DNA from: Tepidiforma bonchosmolovskayae
GTDB lineage: Bacteria > Chloroflexota > Dehalococcoidia > Tepidiformales > Tepidiformaceae
Assembly (NCBI RefSeq): GCF_008838325.1
Contig: NZ_CP042829.1
Location: 310,001-374,000, forward strand
DNA length: 64,000 nt
Direction of reading: 5' to 3'
Part shown: one piece after another, positions 41,880 through 48,349 of the stretch
Position numbering within the stretch: position 1 is the first letter of the stretch
Layout: every line of letters begins with the position of its first letter
The notes under the pieces: generated by a model
Told to the model about the DNA's origin: nothing
Databases searched by the model: none
The model's input: only the letters and a program-made list of their open reading frames with translations
Position numbers and translations under genes: made by a program

Positions 41880-42752
41880 TCAGGGAGCGGCGAGCCGTTC
41901 GAGGAGCCCTTCGACCTGGACGCCGGTGATCGGGCGGACGACCCGCCCCGCACCGGTCCAGTAGGGCCACTTCCAGTCGCCGGTGGCGCGCGGCTGCTGC
42001 ACGGAGAAGAGGACCGACCGGTCTTTGCTGGCGAGCATGAGGTGGTAGTGCTCGCCGAGGGGGACGGTCTCGTTGACGAGGCCGACCCAGCAGGTCATTT
42101 CGCCGCCCGGGAGGGCGAAGGTGGTGCCGAAGTAGCGGTAGTGCCCGCCGACCGGCCGGGAGGCGCTGGCAACGTAGCGGACGCCGGGGCCGAAGCGCAT
42201 GCGGAGGGCGGCACCGATGAGGGCGTGGAGGCGGTTGGTGGTGAGCGCCTCATCGAGCGGAACCTCGCCGAGGCCGAGGATGTCCTCGAGGACGAACTGC
42301 CGGAACTGGGCAGCGATGGGGTCGGGGTCGCCTTCGAGGGCTTCGACGACCTCGTACCAGGTAACGGCAGCCCAGGGCGCGGGGACGTCATCGCGGGGCA
42401 GCCCGAGCATGACAAAGGCGGGCGGCTCGGCCCACTGGCGGGCGACGGCCTCCATGGCGGGGAGCTGGGTTTCATCGGCGCCCGGCTCGACCTGGACTTC
42501 GACGAGCACACGCCGTCCGCCTTCGTAGGTGAGGAGGAGGTCGGCGATGCCGGCATCGGCGAGGCGGGGCTGGACTTCGACGAGCGCGAGGGGCTCGGGG
42601 CCGACGCCGGCGGCCTGGGCGAAGAGTGCGTTCAGCATGCGGTGGCCGCCCCGGAGGAAGTAGGCCAGTGCGCTCGTGCAGTAGTTCTCGAAGGGGCTGG
42701 CCCTGGACCCCGCACGGTAGGCCGAGAGCATGGTAAAGAGGTTGTCGGACAT
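41880..42752 (-). CDS. PD-(D/E)XK nuclease-like protein
   Basis: This 290-residue protein has the skeleton of a restriction-fold nuclease in its first 110 residues: an N-terminal helix with FENYCTSALAYFLR (Glu22), a strand with ADLLL (Asp71), VLVEVQV (Glu85-x-Gln87) and a following helix with ETQLPAME (Gln96). The E-x-K lysine is a glutamine here, as in some active members. The second half is a separate domain with aromatic strands (YRYFGTTFALP, CWVGLVNE) and no family I recognise. It lies 40 bases after the recombinase-like gene and is probably cotranscribed with it. Confidence 0.6.
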   Translation of the reverse strand: MSDNLFTMLSAYRAGSRASPFENYCTSALAYFLRGGHRMLNALFAQAAGVGPEPLALVEVQPRLADAGIADLLLTYEGGRRVLVEVQVEPGADETQLPAMEAVARQWAEPPAFVMLGLPRDDVPAPWAAVTWYEVVEALEGDPDPIAAQFRQFVLEDILGLGEVPLDEALTTNRLHALIGAALRMRFGPGVRYVASASRPVGGHYRYFGTTFALPGGEMTCWVGLVNETVPLGEHYHLMLASKDRSVLFSVQQPRATGDWKWPYWTGAGRVVRPITGVQVEGLLERLAAP

Positions 42753-42792
42753 CAGTTCCAGTATGCACGCGGGGCGGCCAGACCCGCACCCG

Positions 42793-44202
42793 TCAGACGC
42801 GACGGTAGACCCGGAGGTCGTCGCCATCGACCTCGATGCGGTCGACGACGTCGCGGAGGGCAGCCTGGAGGTCGTCGAAGGGGAGGGCATCCCATTCGCG
42901 GAGGAGGCGTTCGCGCTGCTGTTCGAGGTGGCGGCGGCGCTCGGCTTCGGACTCATGGGCATGGATGCGCTCCCGGGCGGCAGCGAGCTCGGCGGTGAGC
43001 TGCCGGTGCTCGTCGGCCAGTTCGGCGCCGAGCGCCTTCATACGTTCGATGGTGATATGGCCGTGGGCGGCATCGGCCACCAGCTCTTCGACCTGGCGGC
43101 GGTTGCGCTTGATGCGCGCCTCAATCCGGTCGACCTGGGACATCAGTTCGAGGGCGTAGGAGTCCACATTGCCAGCGACGCGGACGCGGGGACCGGGGTG
43201 GTCGTCGCTGGCAAGCGCCTCCCGGACGCGGGCCTCGAGGTCGGCGGCGCGGCGGGTGTTGTAGGCGCAGGCGCTCTGGTTCGTGCGCGATTCGCACTGG
43301 TAGTAGCGATAGGTGGCGGTGCGGGAATCGCCGGAGCGGGTGAGCCAGGTTTGGCGGCGGCTGACGCCGATCATCTTGTTGCCGCAGCGGGCGCAGAAGA
43401 CGAGCCCGCTGAGGAGGAAGGGCGTGACGGTGCGCTGGCGGGCTGGGGCGTGGCGGGACTGGAGGCGGTCCTGGACGCGGCGGAAGTCCTCGGGGGAGAC
43501 GAGCGGGGGGTGGGTGCCGGTGACGGTGGTGCCGAAGCGGGAGTAGTGGCCGAGGTAGGCGCGGTTGCGGAGGATGTCGCGGACGGTGACCATGCTCCAG
43601 CGGCCGCCGCGGCGGGTTGGGATGTTCTCTTCGTTGAGGCGGCCGGCGATTTTGCGGATGCCGAGGTTCTCGTGGAGGTAAAGGCGGAAGATGTAGCGGA
43701 CGACTACCGCCTCTTCCGGGACGAGTTCGAGCTTTCGCCGGGGACCGACGCGGTAGCCGTAGGGCGGGCGGCCGAGGACCTCGCCGCGCACGGCCTTTCG
43801 GCGCATGGCGGAGCGGACGCGCTCAGAGATTGGGGTGCCTTCGCCCCGCTCGGCCCAGGTATCGACGAGGGCTTTGAAGGCATCGGCACCGTTGGCGGCG
43901 AGGAGGACCGTGGCGCCGGCGTTTTCGAGTTCGAGGAGGCGGAGGGCGGCCACGCCCAGATCGGGCCCGAGCGCGGAGAGCGCATCGATGACGACGACCG
44001 TGAAGGCTTTATCGGGACGGCCGAGGAAGTCGAGGAGCTGGTCGAACCCGGCGGTCGAGGCGTCGTCGGGGTCGGCGAAGGTTGCGACCACCTCGTAGCC
44101 GGAGCGCTGGCAGAAGTCGAGGAAGGCGCGGTTCTGTTCGCCGATGCTGCGTTTTTGGCCATTGCGGCGGGCTGTTGCAGAGAAGTAGCCGATGGCCTGC
44201 AT
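42793..44202 (-). CDS. Large serine-recombinase-like protein with missing active-site residues
   Basis: This 469-residue protein has the full layout of a large serine recombinase: an N-terminal resolvase-like domain, a recombinase domain (GRPPYGYRVGPRRKLEL, IFRLYLHENLGIRKIAGRLNEENIPTRRGGRW in parts), a zinc ribbon (CARCGNKMIG ... CESRTNQSAC) and a C-terminal coiled coil. The catalytic residues are not where expected. The family Y-x-R-x-S reads YFSAT, and the D-R-L-S-R motif reads DALSAL, so the nucleophile and both arginines seem lost while SIGEQ is kept. It may bind DNA without cutting it. The gene is intact, and begins 8 bases after the zinc-ribbon gene. No att-like repeats were seen. Confidence 0.82.
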   Translation of the reverse strand: MQAIGYFSATARRNGQKRSIGEQNRAFLDFCQRSGYEVVATFADPDDASTAGFDQLLDFLGRPDKAFTVVVIDALSALGPDLGVAALRLLELENAGATVLLAANGADAFKALVDTWAERGEGTPISERVRSAMRRKAVRGEVLGRPPYGYRVGPRRKLELVPEEAVVVRYIFRLYLHENLGIRKIAGRLNEENIPTRRGGRWSMVTVRDILRNRAYLGHYSRFGTTVTGTHPPLVSPEDFRRVQDRLQSRHAPARQRTVTPFLLSGLVFCARCGNKMIGVSRRQTWLTRSGDSRTATYRYYQCESRTNQSACAYNTRRAADLEARVREALASDDHPGPRVRVAGNVDSYALELMSQVDRIEARIKRNRRQVEELVADAAHGHITIERMKALGAELADEHRQLTAELAAARERIHAHESEAERRRHLEQQRERLLREWDALPFDDLQAALRDVVDRIEVDGDDLRVYRRV

Positions 44203-44210
44203 GGGGCGCC

Positions 44211-44909
44211 TCAGCCGACGTAGAGGATGCGCTCGCAGTTCGGGCACTGGGCGAGCGTGGCCGGGTCGAAGGCCTTGCGGCGAACGCTTTCGGGGATGGC
44301 AACGCGGCAGCCGGAGCAGGTGCTGCCCTGGATGCGGGCGACGGCGGTTCCCCGGCGCCGGCGGACATCCTCGTAGAGGCGGATCGAGGCCGGGTGGATG
44401 CGGTCCACCTGGCCCGCGCGGCGGGCGAGGGCGGCGGCGAGGGCAGATGCAAGCTGCGCGCGGCGGGCTTCGAGGGCGGCGACCTCCTGCTCGCGCTCGC
44501 GGCGGGCGGCTGCGAGGGCGGCCTCGGCAGCCCGCCGGGCCGCATCGGCGGCCTCGAACTCCTCCATCACCGCCAGGAGGCGGTCCTCGAGCTGGCTGCG
44601 CTGGGCCTTGAGGTGTTCGAGCTCGTGCTGGATGGCGGTGAGCTCCTTCGGGTTGCGGACGGAGCCGTCGTAGAGGCGCTTCTCCTCGGGAGTGATTTTG
44701 GCATCGAGGGCAGCGACGTCGGCTTCGAGCGCGCGCTGGGAGCGGCGGAGGTCCTGGTAGCGGGCGTCGGCTTCAGCGAATGCGGCCTCTGCTGCGGCGA
44801 GCGGTTCGGAGTGGGCCAGGCGCCCGTCGATGTCGGCGATTGCTGCTTCGAGACCGGCGACTTCGTCGTCGATCTCCTGGAGCGTGCAGATATCGTTGAT
44901 GAGCGACAT
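44211..44909 (-). CDS. Coiled-coil C4 zinc-ribbon protein (CdsZ/DUF164 family)
   Basis: This 232-residue protein consists of a long antiparallel coiled coil (residues about 1-165, rich in Ala, Glu, Arg) containing the conserved turn RLYDGSVRNPKELTAIQHE, and a C-terminal zinc ribbon (CSGCRVAIPESV and CPNCERILYVG). This is the CdsZ / zf-RING_7 pattern, found widely in bacteria and linked to RNA or ribosome-related functions of uncertain detail. It is the first gene of a leftward set with the recombinase-like and nuclease-like genes. Confidence 0.9.
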   Translation of the reverse strand: MSLINDICTLQEIDDEVAGLEAAIADIDGRLAHSEPLAAAEAAFAEADARYQDLRRSQRALEADVAALDAKITPEEKRLYDGSVRNPKELTAIQHELEHLKAQRSQLEDRLLAVMEEFEAADAARRAAEAALAAARREREQEVAALEARRAQLASALAAALARRAGQVDRIHPASIRLYEDVRRRRGTAVARIQGSTCSGCRVAIPESVRRKAFDPATLAQCPNCERILYVG

Positions 44910-45115
44910 GCGGCGGTCCCCCGGGCAGGGCTAACCCTAGCGGCAAAGCCTAGGGGTCCGGGCGGGCGGGCTCAATGGCGTTCGGCGGCCAGCAGTCGAA
45001 TCATCACGTTTGGGCCGAACTTATGGCGTATCGGGCGCAGGGCGGGGGCACGGCATCTACCGAAGCGGTGCGGAATGGGGTTCAATGGAAGTGAGTTCAC
45101 CAGGAGGGGCGGGGG
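44910..45115. other. Divergent intergenic region (206 bases)
   Basis: This region must hold promoters for the zinc-ribbon gene (leftward) and the DUF177-rpmF-fab operon (rightward). I see no convincing -35/-10 pair, operator or RNA element; the best feature is the AGGAGG ribosome site at 45102-45107. Confidence 0.5.
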
Positions 45116-45622
45116 ATGCGTTTCAACGTTGCGGGGCTGCTGAAGTCCGAGGTCGGGGCAAGCCGGCGACACGAGATCGAGCCGGAGGAGCCGGTTCACC
45201 GAGGGAGCGTGGTGATCATCCGGGTGCCGCGGGGGGTGCTGGTGCGGTGCGAGGCGGATGTGTTCATCGAGGCGCAGTGCAGCCGCTGCCTCGTGCCGTT
45301 CGCCTATCCGGAGACGGTGCGGTTCGAGGAGTTTTACCGGCAGCAGGTGGACCTGGTGGACGGGCACCGGATTGCGATGATCGAGGGGGAAGACGAGGAC
45401 ACCTTCGTCATCGGGCTGAACAACGAAGTCGACATTAGCGAGGCCGTCCGGCAATATACGGTGATGGCTGCAGCGATGCAGCCGCTCTGTCGGCCGGACT
45501 GCCCGGGGCTGTGCCCCGAGTGCGGGACGGACCTGAGCATGGAAACCTGCCAGTGCGAGCGCGCACCGATCGACCCGCGATGGGCGAGGCTGCTCACACT
45601 GCAGACTCGGAAGCATGGGTAA
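45116..45622 (+). CDS. DUF177/YceD family protein
   Basis: This 168-residue protein shows the DUF177 form: an N-terminal beta region, CEADVFIEAQCSRCLVPF (C-x2-C), an acidic middle, and a C-terminal CRPDCPGLCPECGTDL metal-binding cluster. Members sit almost always directly before rpmF, as here (20 bases), and are needed for 23S rRNA accumulation in plants and Escherichia coli. ATG 45116 follows AGGAGG by 8 bases. It opens the ribosome-to-fatty-acid operon. Confidence 0.93.
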   Translation: MRFNVAGLLKSEVGASRRHEIEPEEPVHRGSVVIIRVPRGVLVRCEADVFIEAQCSRCLVPFAYPETVRFEEFYRQQVDLVDGHRIAMIEGEDEDTFVIGLNNEVDISEAVRQYTVMAAAMQPLCRPDCPGLCPECGTDLSMETCQCERAPIDPRWARLLTLQTRKHG

Positions 45623-45642
45623 CGACCTGAAGGAGAGCCGCT

Positions 45643-45837
45643 ATGCCGCCGCTGCCAAAGCGGAAATACGCAGCTTCGCGCCAGGGGAAGCGCCGCTCGC
45701 ATCTGAAGCTGAAGATGCCGCACATCATCGATTGTCCGCGGTGCAAGAGCCCGCGGCTGGCGCATCACGCCTGCCCGATTTGCGGGACGTACCGGGGCCG
45801 GGAAGTGATTCAGCTGCCCGAGCCGGATCTCGACTGA
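45643..45837 (+). CDS. rpmF: 50S ribosomal protein L32
   Basis: This 64-residue basic ribosomal protein starts MPPLPKRKYAASRQGKRRSH and has a zinc ribbon (CPRCKSPRLAHHACPICG), the C-plus form of L32. It binds 23S rRNA in the large subunit. The spacing to DUF177 and to fabD is the classical arrangement. A longer frame over the same bases belongs to an upstream reading of fabD and is not protein-like. Confidence 0.96.
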   Translation: MPPLPKRKYAASRQGKRRSHLKLKMPHIIDCPRCKSPRLAHHACPICGTYRGREVIQLPEPDLD

Positions 45838-45854
45838 CCTTCGGAGCTACGGCT

Positions 45855-46817
45855 CTGGAACCGTTCCTCATCTACAGCGACCCGGTTCGAAAGGACCGGG
45901 CGTTCGTGTTCCCGGGGCAGGGCGCGCAGGCCGTGGGCATGGGGAAGGACCTCTACGAGCAGTTCCCAACGGCCCGCGAGCTGTACGACCGCGCGGACGA
46001 GATCCTCGGGTTCCGGCTGAGCCGGCTCTGCTTCGAAGGCCCGGAAGAGGAGCTCCAGCAGACCAGGAACGCCCAGCCGGCGATTGCGGTGACGAGCCTC
46101 GCGCTCCTGAAGGTGGCGACCGAGGTTTCGCCGCAGCTGCTGGAACGGCCCGCGTTCGTGGCGGGGCACTCGCTGGGCGAATACTCGGCGCTGGTGGCTG
46201 CCGGCGCCCTGCCGTTCGACGAAGCGGTGCGGCTGCTGCGCATCCGGGGTGAGCTGATGCAGGCTGCCGGGGAGAAGAACCCGGGAACGATGGCTGCCGT
46301 GCTCGGCCTTGACCTGACCGACTGCGAGGAGATCTGCCGGGAGGCGGGCGCCGAGGTGTGCAACGTGAATGCGCCGGGGCAGATCGTCATCGGGGGGCGG
46401 CGCGAGGCGGTCGTGCGCGCGCTGGATTACGCCAAGGCCCGCGGCGCGGTGAAGGTGATTCCGCTCAGCGTCAGCGGGGCGTTCCACAGCTCCCTGATGC
46501 GGCCGGCGGCCGATGGGATGGTGCAGCCGGTGGCGACGGCTTCGCTCGCGGACCCGGCAGTGCCCGTCGTGCTGAATGTGACGGCAACGCCGACGCAGGA
46601 CGAGCTGGCGATTCGGCACGAGCTGGTGGACCAGGTCTGCCGGCCGGTGCAGTGGACCAAGACGGTGGAGTTCCTCGGCGCCCATGGAGTCGAGACCTTC
46701 ATCGAGTTCGGCCCGGGGCGCGTCCTGACGGCGATCATCAAGCGGATGCTGCGGAAGTCGACGTGCATCAATGTGAACGACGCAGCGTCAGTGCGGGTGC
46801 AGCTCCCCGATGGGTGA
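45855..46817 (+). CDS. fabD: Malonyl-CoA:ACP transacylase, probable CTG start
   Basis: This protein of about 320 residues moves malonyl groups from CoA to acyl carrier protein. It shows AFVFPGQGAQAVGMG, the nucleophile in GHSLGEYSAL, and the histidine region SGAFHSSLM, then FIEFGPGRVL. No ATG, GTG or TTG exists in frame between the rpmF stop and the first conserved strand. CTG 45855 is 8 bases after GGAG (45843-45846) and gives a normal N-terminus. GTG 45906 would cut into the FVFPGQG strand, and the ATG at 45615 would mean an unlikely 80-residue overlap with rpmF. The next gene overlaps its stop by 8 bases. Confidence 0.9.
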   Translation: MEPFLIYSDPVRKDRAFVFPGQGAQAVGMGKDLYEQFPTARELYDRADEILGFRLSRLCFEGPEEELQQTRNAQPAIAVTSLALLKVATEVSPQLLERPAFVAGHSLGEYSALVAAGALPFDEAVRLLRIRGELMQAAGEKNPGTMAAVLGLDLTDCEEICREAGAEVCNVNAPGQIVIGGRREAVVRALDYAKARGAVKVIPLSVSGAFHSSLMRPAADGMVQPVATASLADPAVPVVLNVTATPTQDELAIRHELVDQVCRPVQWTKTVEFLGAHGVETFIEFGPGRVLTAIIKRMLRKSTCINVNDAASVRVQLPDG

Positions 46818-47559
46818 CCTGGACGGCAAAGCGGCGCTGGTGACGGGCGGGAGCCGGGGCATCGGCCGGGCAATCTGCCTGGAGCTGGGGCGCCGCGGCG
46901 CCCGGGTGGCGGTGAACTACCGCGCGAATGCCGAGCTGGCCGAGCAGGTGGCGGCCGAGATCCGGGCGATGGGCAGCGAGGCGTTTGCCGTGGGGGGCGA
47001 TGTCGCGAATGGCGACGACGCTGCTGCGATGGTGAAGGCGACCGTCGAGCGGTTCGGCGGGCTGGACATCCTCGTGAACAACGCGGGCATCACCCGCGAC
47101 GGGCTGCTGATGCGGATGAGCGACGAGGACTGGGACGCGGTGCACCAGGTGAACCTGCGGGGCGCATTCCTGGTCACCCGGGCTGCGATGCGGCCGATGC
47201 TGCGGGCGCGGGGCGGCCGGATCATCAACATCACGAGCGTGGTGGGGGTGATGGGGAACGCGGGCCAGGCGAACTACGCGGCAGCGAAGGCGGGGCTCAT
47301 CGGCTTCACGCGGGCGCTGGCCCGGGAGGTGGCGTCGCGGGGGATCACGGTGAACGCTGTGGCGCCCGGGTTCATCGAGACGGACATCATCCAGGGCATG
47401 AGCGAGCAGGCGGTCGCGTGGGCGAAGTCGCAGATTCCGCTGGGGCGGCTGGCGGGGCCGGAGGAGGTCGCGCCGCTGGTCGCGTTCCTTGCCAGCGACG
47501 GGGCGGGCTACATCACGGGGCAGTGCATCCACGTTGATGGCGGTATGGTGATGGCGTGA
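46810..47559 (+). CDS. fabG: 3-oxoacyl-ACP reductase
   Basis: This 249-residue NADPH-dependent SDR performs the first reduction of fatty-acid elongation. It shows TGGSRGIGRA, NNAGITRDGLLMRM (the FabG form), the catalytic serine in NITSVVG, YAAAK, and the C-terminal YITGQCIHVDGGMVM. Context after fabD and before nusB and acpP supports the assignment. ATG 46810 overlaps the fabD stop by 8 bases. Confidence 0.95.
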   Translation: MGDLDGKAALVTGGSRGIGRAICLELGRRGARVAVNYRANAELAEQVAAEIRAMGSEAFAVGGDVANGDDAAAMVKATVERFGGLDILVNNAGITRDGLLMRMSDEDWDAVHQVNLRGAFLVTRAAMRPMLRARGGRIINITSVVGVMGNAGQANYAAAKAGLIGFTRALAREVASRGITVNAVAPGFIETDIIQGMSEQAVAWAKSQIPLGRLAGPEEVAPLVAFLASDGAGYITGQCIHVDGGMVMA

Positions 47560-48062
47560 CCGCCAGCCCCTACCGGCTCATTCGACAGCTGGCCATTGAA
47601 GCGCTCTACGAAGCCGAGACCTCGGGCCACCCGGCAGAGGCTGCGTTCCGGCGCCGGCTCCTCGAAGAGCGGGAGTCGACGCCCTCGCTCCGTGGCGAGG
47701 AGTGGGAGAAGCGCGGGCTTGCGGCGATCCGGGGGGTGCTGGGCCTGCTCCCGGAGCTGGACCGGTACATCCAGGAGGCGGCTCCAAAGTACCCGGTGAG
47801 CACGCTTGCCATCGTTGACCGCAACATCCTGCGGCTTGCAATATGGGAACTCGTCTCGGACAATTCGGCGCCGGTCGCGGCCGTCATCAACGAGGCCGTT
47901 GAACTTGCGCACCGGTATGGAGGCGACAGTTCGCCGAGCTTCGTAAACGGCGTGTTGCGGACGGTGAGTGAACGGCTGCGGCAGCGGGGGGAAGACCCCG
48001 GCAGCGCCGGAAGCACCGTGCCGGAGCGCGAAACGACGACACCAACGGACCCCAGCCAGTAA
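47556..48062 (+). CDS. nusB: Transcription antitermination factor NusB
   Basis: This 168-residue helical protein matches Nus[16 protein letters not shown] at the N-terminus, then [12 protein letters not shown] and the hallmark [26 protein letters not shown] (given as one conserved helix pair, here in two parts [13 protein letters not shown] and SFVNGVL). It binds boxA RNA with S10 during rRNA transcription. The first half carries a short charged insertion compared with E. coli. The start is GTG 47556, overlapping the fabG stop (GTGA). The last 25 residues are low-complexity. Confidence 0.93.
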
Positions 48063-48088
48063 ACGTCATCCCAGGAGAAACCAGGACC

Positions 48089-48349
48089 GTGGCAACCGTA
48101 TTCGAACGTGTTCGCAAGATTGTGGTCGAGCAACTCGGCGTGGAGGAGGACGAAGTCGTCCCGAGCGCCTCGTTCGTCGACGACCTGAACGCCGACTCGC
48201 TGGACCTCGTTGAGCTGATTATGTCGCTTGAGGAGGAGTTCGCGAACGACGTTGCCGGGCTCGAGATCAGCGATGAAGACGCTGAAAAGATCGTGACCGT
48301 GCAGGACGCCGTAGACTACTTGAAGGACCACGGGGTCGAAGACAAGTAA
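48089..48349 (+). CDS. acpP: Acyl carrier protein
   Basis: This 86-residue acidic four-helix carrier has the phosphopantetheine serine in [11 protein letters not shown] (Ser about 38). It carries growing acyl chains for FabD, FabG and the other FAS II enzymes. GTG 48089 has a CAGGAGAAA ribosome site. The length is slightly above the usual 78 because of a short insertion after EEEF. Confidence 0.96.

Follow-up and report, generated by a model that had tools for sequence, protein, structure and literature searches.

A large serine recombinase without its catalytic residues, fixed at one chromosomal locus and most likely kept as a DNA-binding regulator

Why is a large serine recombinase (LSR) that has lost its catalytic residues kept beside a housekeeping cluster of Tepidiforma bonchosmolovskayae? 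The gene, hereafter the dead LSR, lies in a window of 64,000 nucleotides (contig NZ_CP042829.1, positions 310,001 to 374,000), the numbering of which is used throughout (Table 1). It is an intact minus-strand frame of 469 codons and a stop, occurs once in the 2.75-Mb genome and has an ATG start that is backed by orthologs beginning with M-[KRQ]-A-[VI]-G-Y-F at the same site. Pfam models for the recombinase domain (PF07508, 2e-23) and the recombinase zinc ribbon (Zn_ribbon_recom, PF13408, 7e-12) match the protein, as does the integrase family PHROG 95 (E 1e-78), and no Pfam match to Resolvase (PF00239) is found in it. Both PF07508 and PF13408 are present in all 59 orthologs tested, which places the protein in the LSR sequence family. 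PF00239 matches 29 of the same 59, which together with the structural overlay described below identifies the N-terminal region as a resolvase fold.

Table 1. Features of the dead LSR locus, in window coordinates.
Feature	Residues	Coordinates	Strand	Basis or remark
Catalytically dead LSR, 469 aa, one copy in the genome		42793..44202	-	
N-terminal resolvase-fold domain	1-118	43849..44202	-	alignment, model, match to 3bvp_B
Linker and dimer-helix region	119-142	43777..43848	-	low-confidence loop 120-124
Recombinase DNA-binding domain (RD)	143-250	43453..43776	-	most conserved part
Zinc-ribbon domain (ZD)	251-330	43213..43452	-	Cys270, Cys273, Cys303, Cys312
Coiled-coil insertion and C-terminal part of ZD	331-469	42796..43212	-	model; A118 integrase alignment
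CT398/HP0958-type coiled-coil and C4 zinc-ribbon protein		44211..44909	-	directly upstream, 8-bp gap
GCTAGGGTTAGC element		44930..44941	-	between -10 and start codon; conserved in Tepidiformaceae
Likely -10, TAGGCT		44947..44952	-	read from sequence; 17-bp spacer to -35
Likely -35 of two-gene operon, TTGAGC		44970..44975	-	read from sequence; conserved in genus alignment
CATAAG-N-GTGATGATT element		44999..45025	-	between divergent genes; genus/family alignment
Divergent housekeeping cluster yceD(DUF177)-rpmF-fabD-fabG-nusB-acpP		45116..48349	+	synteny anchor

In the AlphaFold model (pLDDT 87, pTM 0.53), the resolvase fold, RD, ZD and long coiled-coil helices are all predicted to be retained, the latter as helices 345-379 and 385-415 of the C-terminal region; given this pTM, the arrangement of the domains in the model is uncertain. 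The top matches of Foldseek and VIA-align are the LSR structures of YokA, Bxb1, A118 and phiC31, and the catalytic domain of TP901-1 (3bvp_B) superimposes on residues 1-128 with a Z of 13.2 and an rmsd of 3.1 over 119 residues. PadR/VanR-type regulators are also matched by VIA-align (e.g., 5x11_C, Z 8.8, residues 343-417). These matches are limited to the long-helix region and are taken to reflect a common arrangement.

Alignment of the dead LSR to 33 ordinary LSRs was used to map its catalytic residues. The nucleophile motif Y-x-R-x-S reads Y6-F-S8-A-T10, while the D-R-x-S-R motif aligns to S76-A77-L78-G79-P80; the catalytic domain thus carries S8 for R8, T10 for S10, T50 for R45, S76 for D67, A77 for R68 and P80 for R71, with Y6 and Q23 (of SIGEQ) retained. 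Without the nucleophilic Ser and without the arginines R8, R45, R68 and R71, the protein does not qualify as a functional serine recombinase. All five of R8, S10, R45, R68 and R71 are found in 17 of the 19 ordinary LSRs from the class; the remaining two lack part of the N-terminus. Of the 120 orthologs in the joint alignment, 47 retain none of the five, 49 retain one, 22 retain two and two retain three; none has four or five.

One could still envisage that the protein recombines DNA through a rearranged active site, in which Ser8 or another nucleophile works with other arginines. In favor of this, distant orthologs read YFRES or YFRET, and some of them, those with YFRES, retain both Arg8 and Ser10. 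Since the Arg8 position is partly retained and the nucleophile position is drifting, these motifs look like remnants. The nucleophile position is Ser in only 11 of the 120 orthologs and varies among G, T, S, P, L, A and others, while R45 is kept in 21%, R68 in ~5% and R71 in ~4% of them. Ser8 occupies the Arg8 position, is typical only of the genus and is replaced by Val in most family members beyond it, which argues that it is not a relocated nucleophile. The ortholog survey and the alignment to ordinary LSRs rule out a register-shifted Ser8 nucleophile, and we regard a rearranged active site of any kind as very unlikely.

A first-pass annotation made from sequence alone had reported an undamaged 469-codon frame, a YFSAT reading of Y-x-R-x-S, and the presence of SIGEQ, recombinase domain, zinc ribbon and coiled coil; all of these held, the coiled coil in so far as the long helices of the model are consistent with it. 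It had also proposed a structural overlay, in which the fold is retained in the model and LSR structures are the best matches. Its placement of D-R-x-S-R at DALSAL (D73-L78) had to be corrected, as the motif lies three residues downstream; its claim that the nucleophile and arginines were lost held or became stronger after realignment. Its caveat that Ser8 could be active if the register had shifted failed.

The dead LSR is not restricted to Tepidiforma. Among 41 genomes (its own and 40 relatives), it is present in all six of the genus, including that of Tepidiforma flava (NZ_CP115149.1), where its identity to the other five copies is 87-96%. Of the remaining genera in the family, most have it too, mostly at 58-74% identity. 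The class, which here means a GTDB-like grouping of genomes mostly titled Dehalococcoidia (NCBI puts Tepidiforma in Tepidiformia), was searched with a profile in 294 genomes; 213 had matches at E <= 1e-10 and ~150 an ortholog (match better than 1e-55; counted by eye from the table). Many members of the class do not have the gene. A clear score gap lies between the dead-LSR family (>= 240 bits) and the class's ordinary LSRs (<= 170 bits). The best matches in the phylum outside the class are weaker (143-201 bits), and those with an in-frame, complete N-terminus have intact motifs of the Y-x-R-x-S and D-R-x-x-R types. In a tree of RD and ZD, the orthologs are monophyletic against the 33 ordinary LSRs with a support of 0.88. 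Synteny at the locus is conserved across dozens of families, so the dead LSR is inherited vertically, and the sporadic, element-borne location that marks a mobile-element integrase is not met. No phage-borne copy was found in viral contigs, where no relative passed tblastn; the phage matches are ordinary integrases with <30% identity in the listed rows. At the locus itself no boundaries of an element can be seen, a result that does not rest on a systematic search for att sites. The catalytic residues were thus lost in an ancestor before the class diversified, and the gene has since been fixed at one chromosomal locus under purifying selection.

This selection is distributed unevenly over the protein. 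The dead LSR retains only 4 of the 19 LSR-conserved columns in residues 1-118, compared with 15 of 16 in RD and 12 of 12 in ZD (4/19 vs 27/28, Fisher p 7e-8). Within the genus, dN/dS (Nei-Gojobori) is 0.13 overall, 0.17 for the N-terminal domain, 0.05 for RD (computed over residues 119-250), 0.16 for ZD and 0.15 for the C-terminal region; the family-wide values come from simple counting on saturating distances, so those of the genus are the reliable ones. Columns at least 85% identical across the class number 61 in RD and ZD vs 12 in residues 1-142; the coiled-coil region is fast-evolving. A dozen near-fixed residues are rare or absent in ordinary LSRs, namely R183, R208, D209, Y220 and R222 in RD and R282, Q284, W286, Q302, N308, Y314 and T316 in ZD. 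From DNA-reading domains this constrained we infer that the family probably reads one fixed sequence. Outside these domains, C31 (96%) and W437 (94%) are near-fixed in the orthologs and occur in 12% each of other LSRs; they could conceivably mark a new interface. One clade of orthologs (L147, L148, L150, L153-L159; 10 of 120) is without three of the four zinc-ribbon cysteines (YYQSEARTNQSVG), and the remainder of ZD is still recognisable there. The zinc ribbon is hence not strictly required everywhere.

The same data bear on the possibility that the gene is a decaying integrase, that is the relic of an old prophage or integrative element on its way to becoming a pseudogene. Such decay would fit the lost catalytic residues and the faster evolution of the N-terminal and coiled-coil regions than of RD. 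Against it, the full-length frame is open in nearly all orthologs, partial matches being due to contig ends, dN/dS is 0.13, synteny is conserved across dozens of families, and identity of the dead LSR to other genera (58-74%) exceeds that of nusB, yceD and the CT398-type neighbor in most of them. Pseudogenisation is ruled out by dN/dS, synteny and open frames, and decay as a whole is all but excluded. The first-pass annotation had leaned towards a recruited DNA-binding protein rather than a decaying integrase and had suggested dN/dS and a survey of homologues as checks; dN/dS stays well under 1 in all domains, the catalytic losses are common to 120 class-wide orthologs, and its reading is supported, with DNA binding and regulation still inferred. 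Beyond its reach were the ancient origin of the loss, its spread across the class and the conservation of the operon.

LSR pairs such as CcrA/CcrB exist, and the dead LSR might accordingly be the inactive subunit of a heteromeric recombinase, providing an active partner with DNA binding. A search of five Tepidiforma genomes found no further resolvase domain (PF00239), which argues that the dead LSR is not paired with an active subunit; a very diverged partner could escape this search, and we consider the heteromeric explanation virtually excluded.

The gene directly upstream encodes a protein of the CT398/HP0958 family (PF24481, 4e-22; its PF02591 match, 7e-6 and 26.5 bits, is slightly under the cut-off of 29.1 bits) and is, as inferred from the locus, probably the operon partner of the dead LSR. 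Flanking sequence was sufficient at 141 ortholog loci, some genomes being counted twice; this gene is directly upstream in the same direction at 126 of them, and the divergent yceD-fab cluster, which in the window is continued by tatA-tatC beyond acpP, is present at 109. Only six have neither neighbor. Obligate pairing is rejected nevertheless, as each gene occurs without the other: PF24481 has no match genome-wide in 14 genomes, from several families, that retain the dead LSR, so the partnership is not obligate, and in several genomes PF24481 is present but no ortholog scores above the gap in bit scores. In family f2, for instance, the genomes tested (G025, G066, G129, G239 and others) have no PF24481 match in the whole genome, and most of them still have the dead LSR beside the yceD-fab cluster. 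CT398-type relatives bind RpoN (PMC6426960, PMC5947703), and Wcw_1456, the CT398 homologue of Waddlia, was found at several hundred promoters, with translation genes prominent, and with RpoD in a pull-down (PMC6426960). The upstream protein shares the PF24481 coiled-coil hairpin and C4 zinc ribbon with the CT398/HP0958 (FlgZ)/MSMEG_4306 family; unlike the known relatives, its gene apparently shares an operon with a dead LSR.

Two short elements within 44910-45115 are conserved across Tepidiformaceae. The order TTGAGC, 17 bp, TAGGCT and then GCTAGGGTTAGC is conserved within the genus and can still be recognised at family level. GCTAGGGTTAGC may be a single autoregulatory site, for which no binding data exist. 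The CATAAG-N-GTGATGATT element, present in exactly one copy in four of the five genomes searched and absent from the fifth (G018), is probably the promoter/operator of the divergent yceD-rpmF-fab operon, an inference from its sequence; both elements may be promoter parts. No inverted repeats were found in 44890-45130. As repeated binding sites, both candidates fail: GCTA[GC]GGTTAGC-type matches are no more frequent in the genome than expected by chance, and CATAA-N-GTRAYGATT has one copy or none in each genome searched. The conserved upstream elements therefore yielded no repeated target motif in the genomes searched.

A protein of this kind could also serve chromosome architecture, as a tetramer bridging distant DNA sites without regulating particular promoters. 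LSRs naturally synapse two sites, and the model still has both the resolvase fold and the coiled coils. Against this stand the lack of a repeated site, a weak test because the site is unknown, and a tetramer state that is itself only inferred, so we consider this role unlikely.

We propose instead that the dead LSR is a domesticated LSR that no longer cuts DNA and most likely functions as a DNA-binding regulator, where binding, oligomerisation and regulation are all inferred. With a predicted resolvase fold still in place and RD and ZD as the constrained, DNA-binding parts, the protein would assemble, through its resolvase fold and coiled coils, into a dimer or larger oligomer that binds one conserved DNA sequence. 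There it would act as a repressor, an activator or a looping protein, possibly jointly with the CT398-type operon partner, whose relatives bind sigma factors. The regulator reading is weakened by the absence of experimental DNA binding and of a repeated target motif. A sequence reader with a sigma-factor-contacting partner makes an attractive module, though the partner is dispensable. A bolder reading, offered here as no more than a possibility, is a class-wide transcription-control module in which the dead LSR would be the reader and the CT398-type protein the sigma-factor-binding coupler to RNA polymerase. If so, the adjacent ribosome and fatty-acid cluster, and perhaps other promoters, would be under its control.

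The domain order of resolvase fold, RD and ZD with coiled coil is shared with LSRs and serine integrases such as A118, YokA of SPbeta, Bxb1, phiC31, XisF and CcrA/B/C. Unlike them, the dead LSR is without catalytic serine or arginines and is inherited vertically at a fixed housekeeping locus with no known element or att site. A functional parallel is MrpR (YopR), the SPbeta master repressor, a protein of tyrosine-recombinase fold that has lost catalysis and is now a DNA-binding regulator (PMC10516654). The dead LSR resembles it in having lost catalysis and retained its DNA-binding domains, its sequence-specific binding and conversion to a regulator being inferred; MrpR differs in its tyrosine-recombinase fold, its phage-borne location and its known binding site. 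Recombinase-to-regulator conversion is thus known for tyrosine recombinases. In the open-licence literature searched, we met no report on dead or domesticated LSRs or on Tepidiforma recombinases, no LSR example of such conversion and none of such age or spread; genes of this kind probably go under the annotation 'recombinase family protein' alone. A naturally cleavage-dead LSR offers a test of how the RD and ZD of LSRs read DNA, and of the role of the resolvase fold without chemistry.

Downstream of the dead LSR, a 291-aa ORF (41880-42755, minus strand) has no Pfam match at E <= 0.1 and was not detected beside the dead LSR in other genera. Its stretch VLVEVQVEPG is PD-(D/E)XK-like by eye only, and the ORF is kept in all six Tepidiforma genomes (89-95%).
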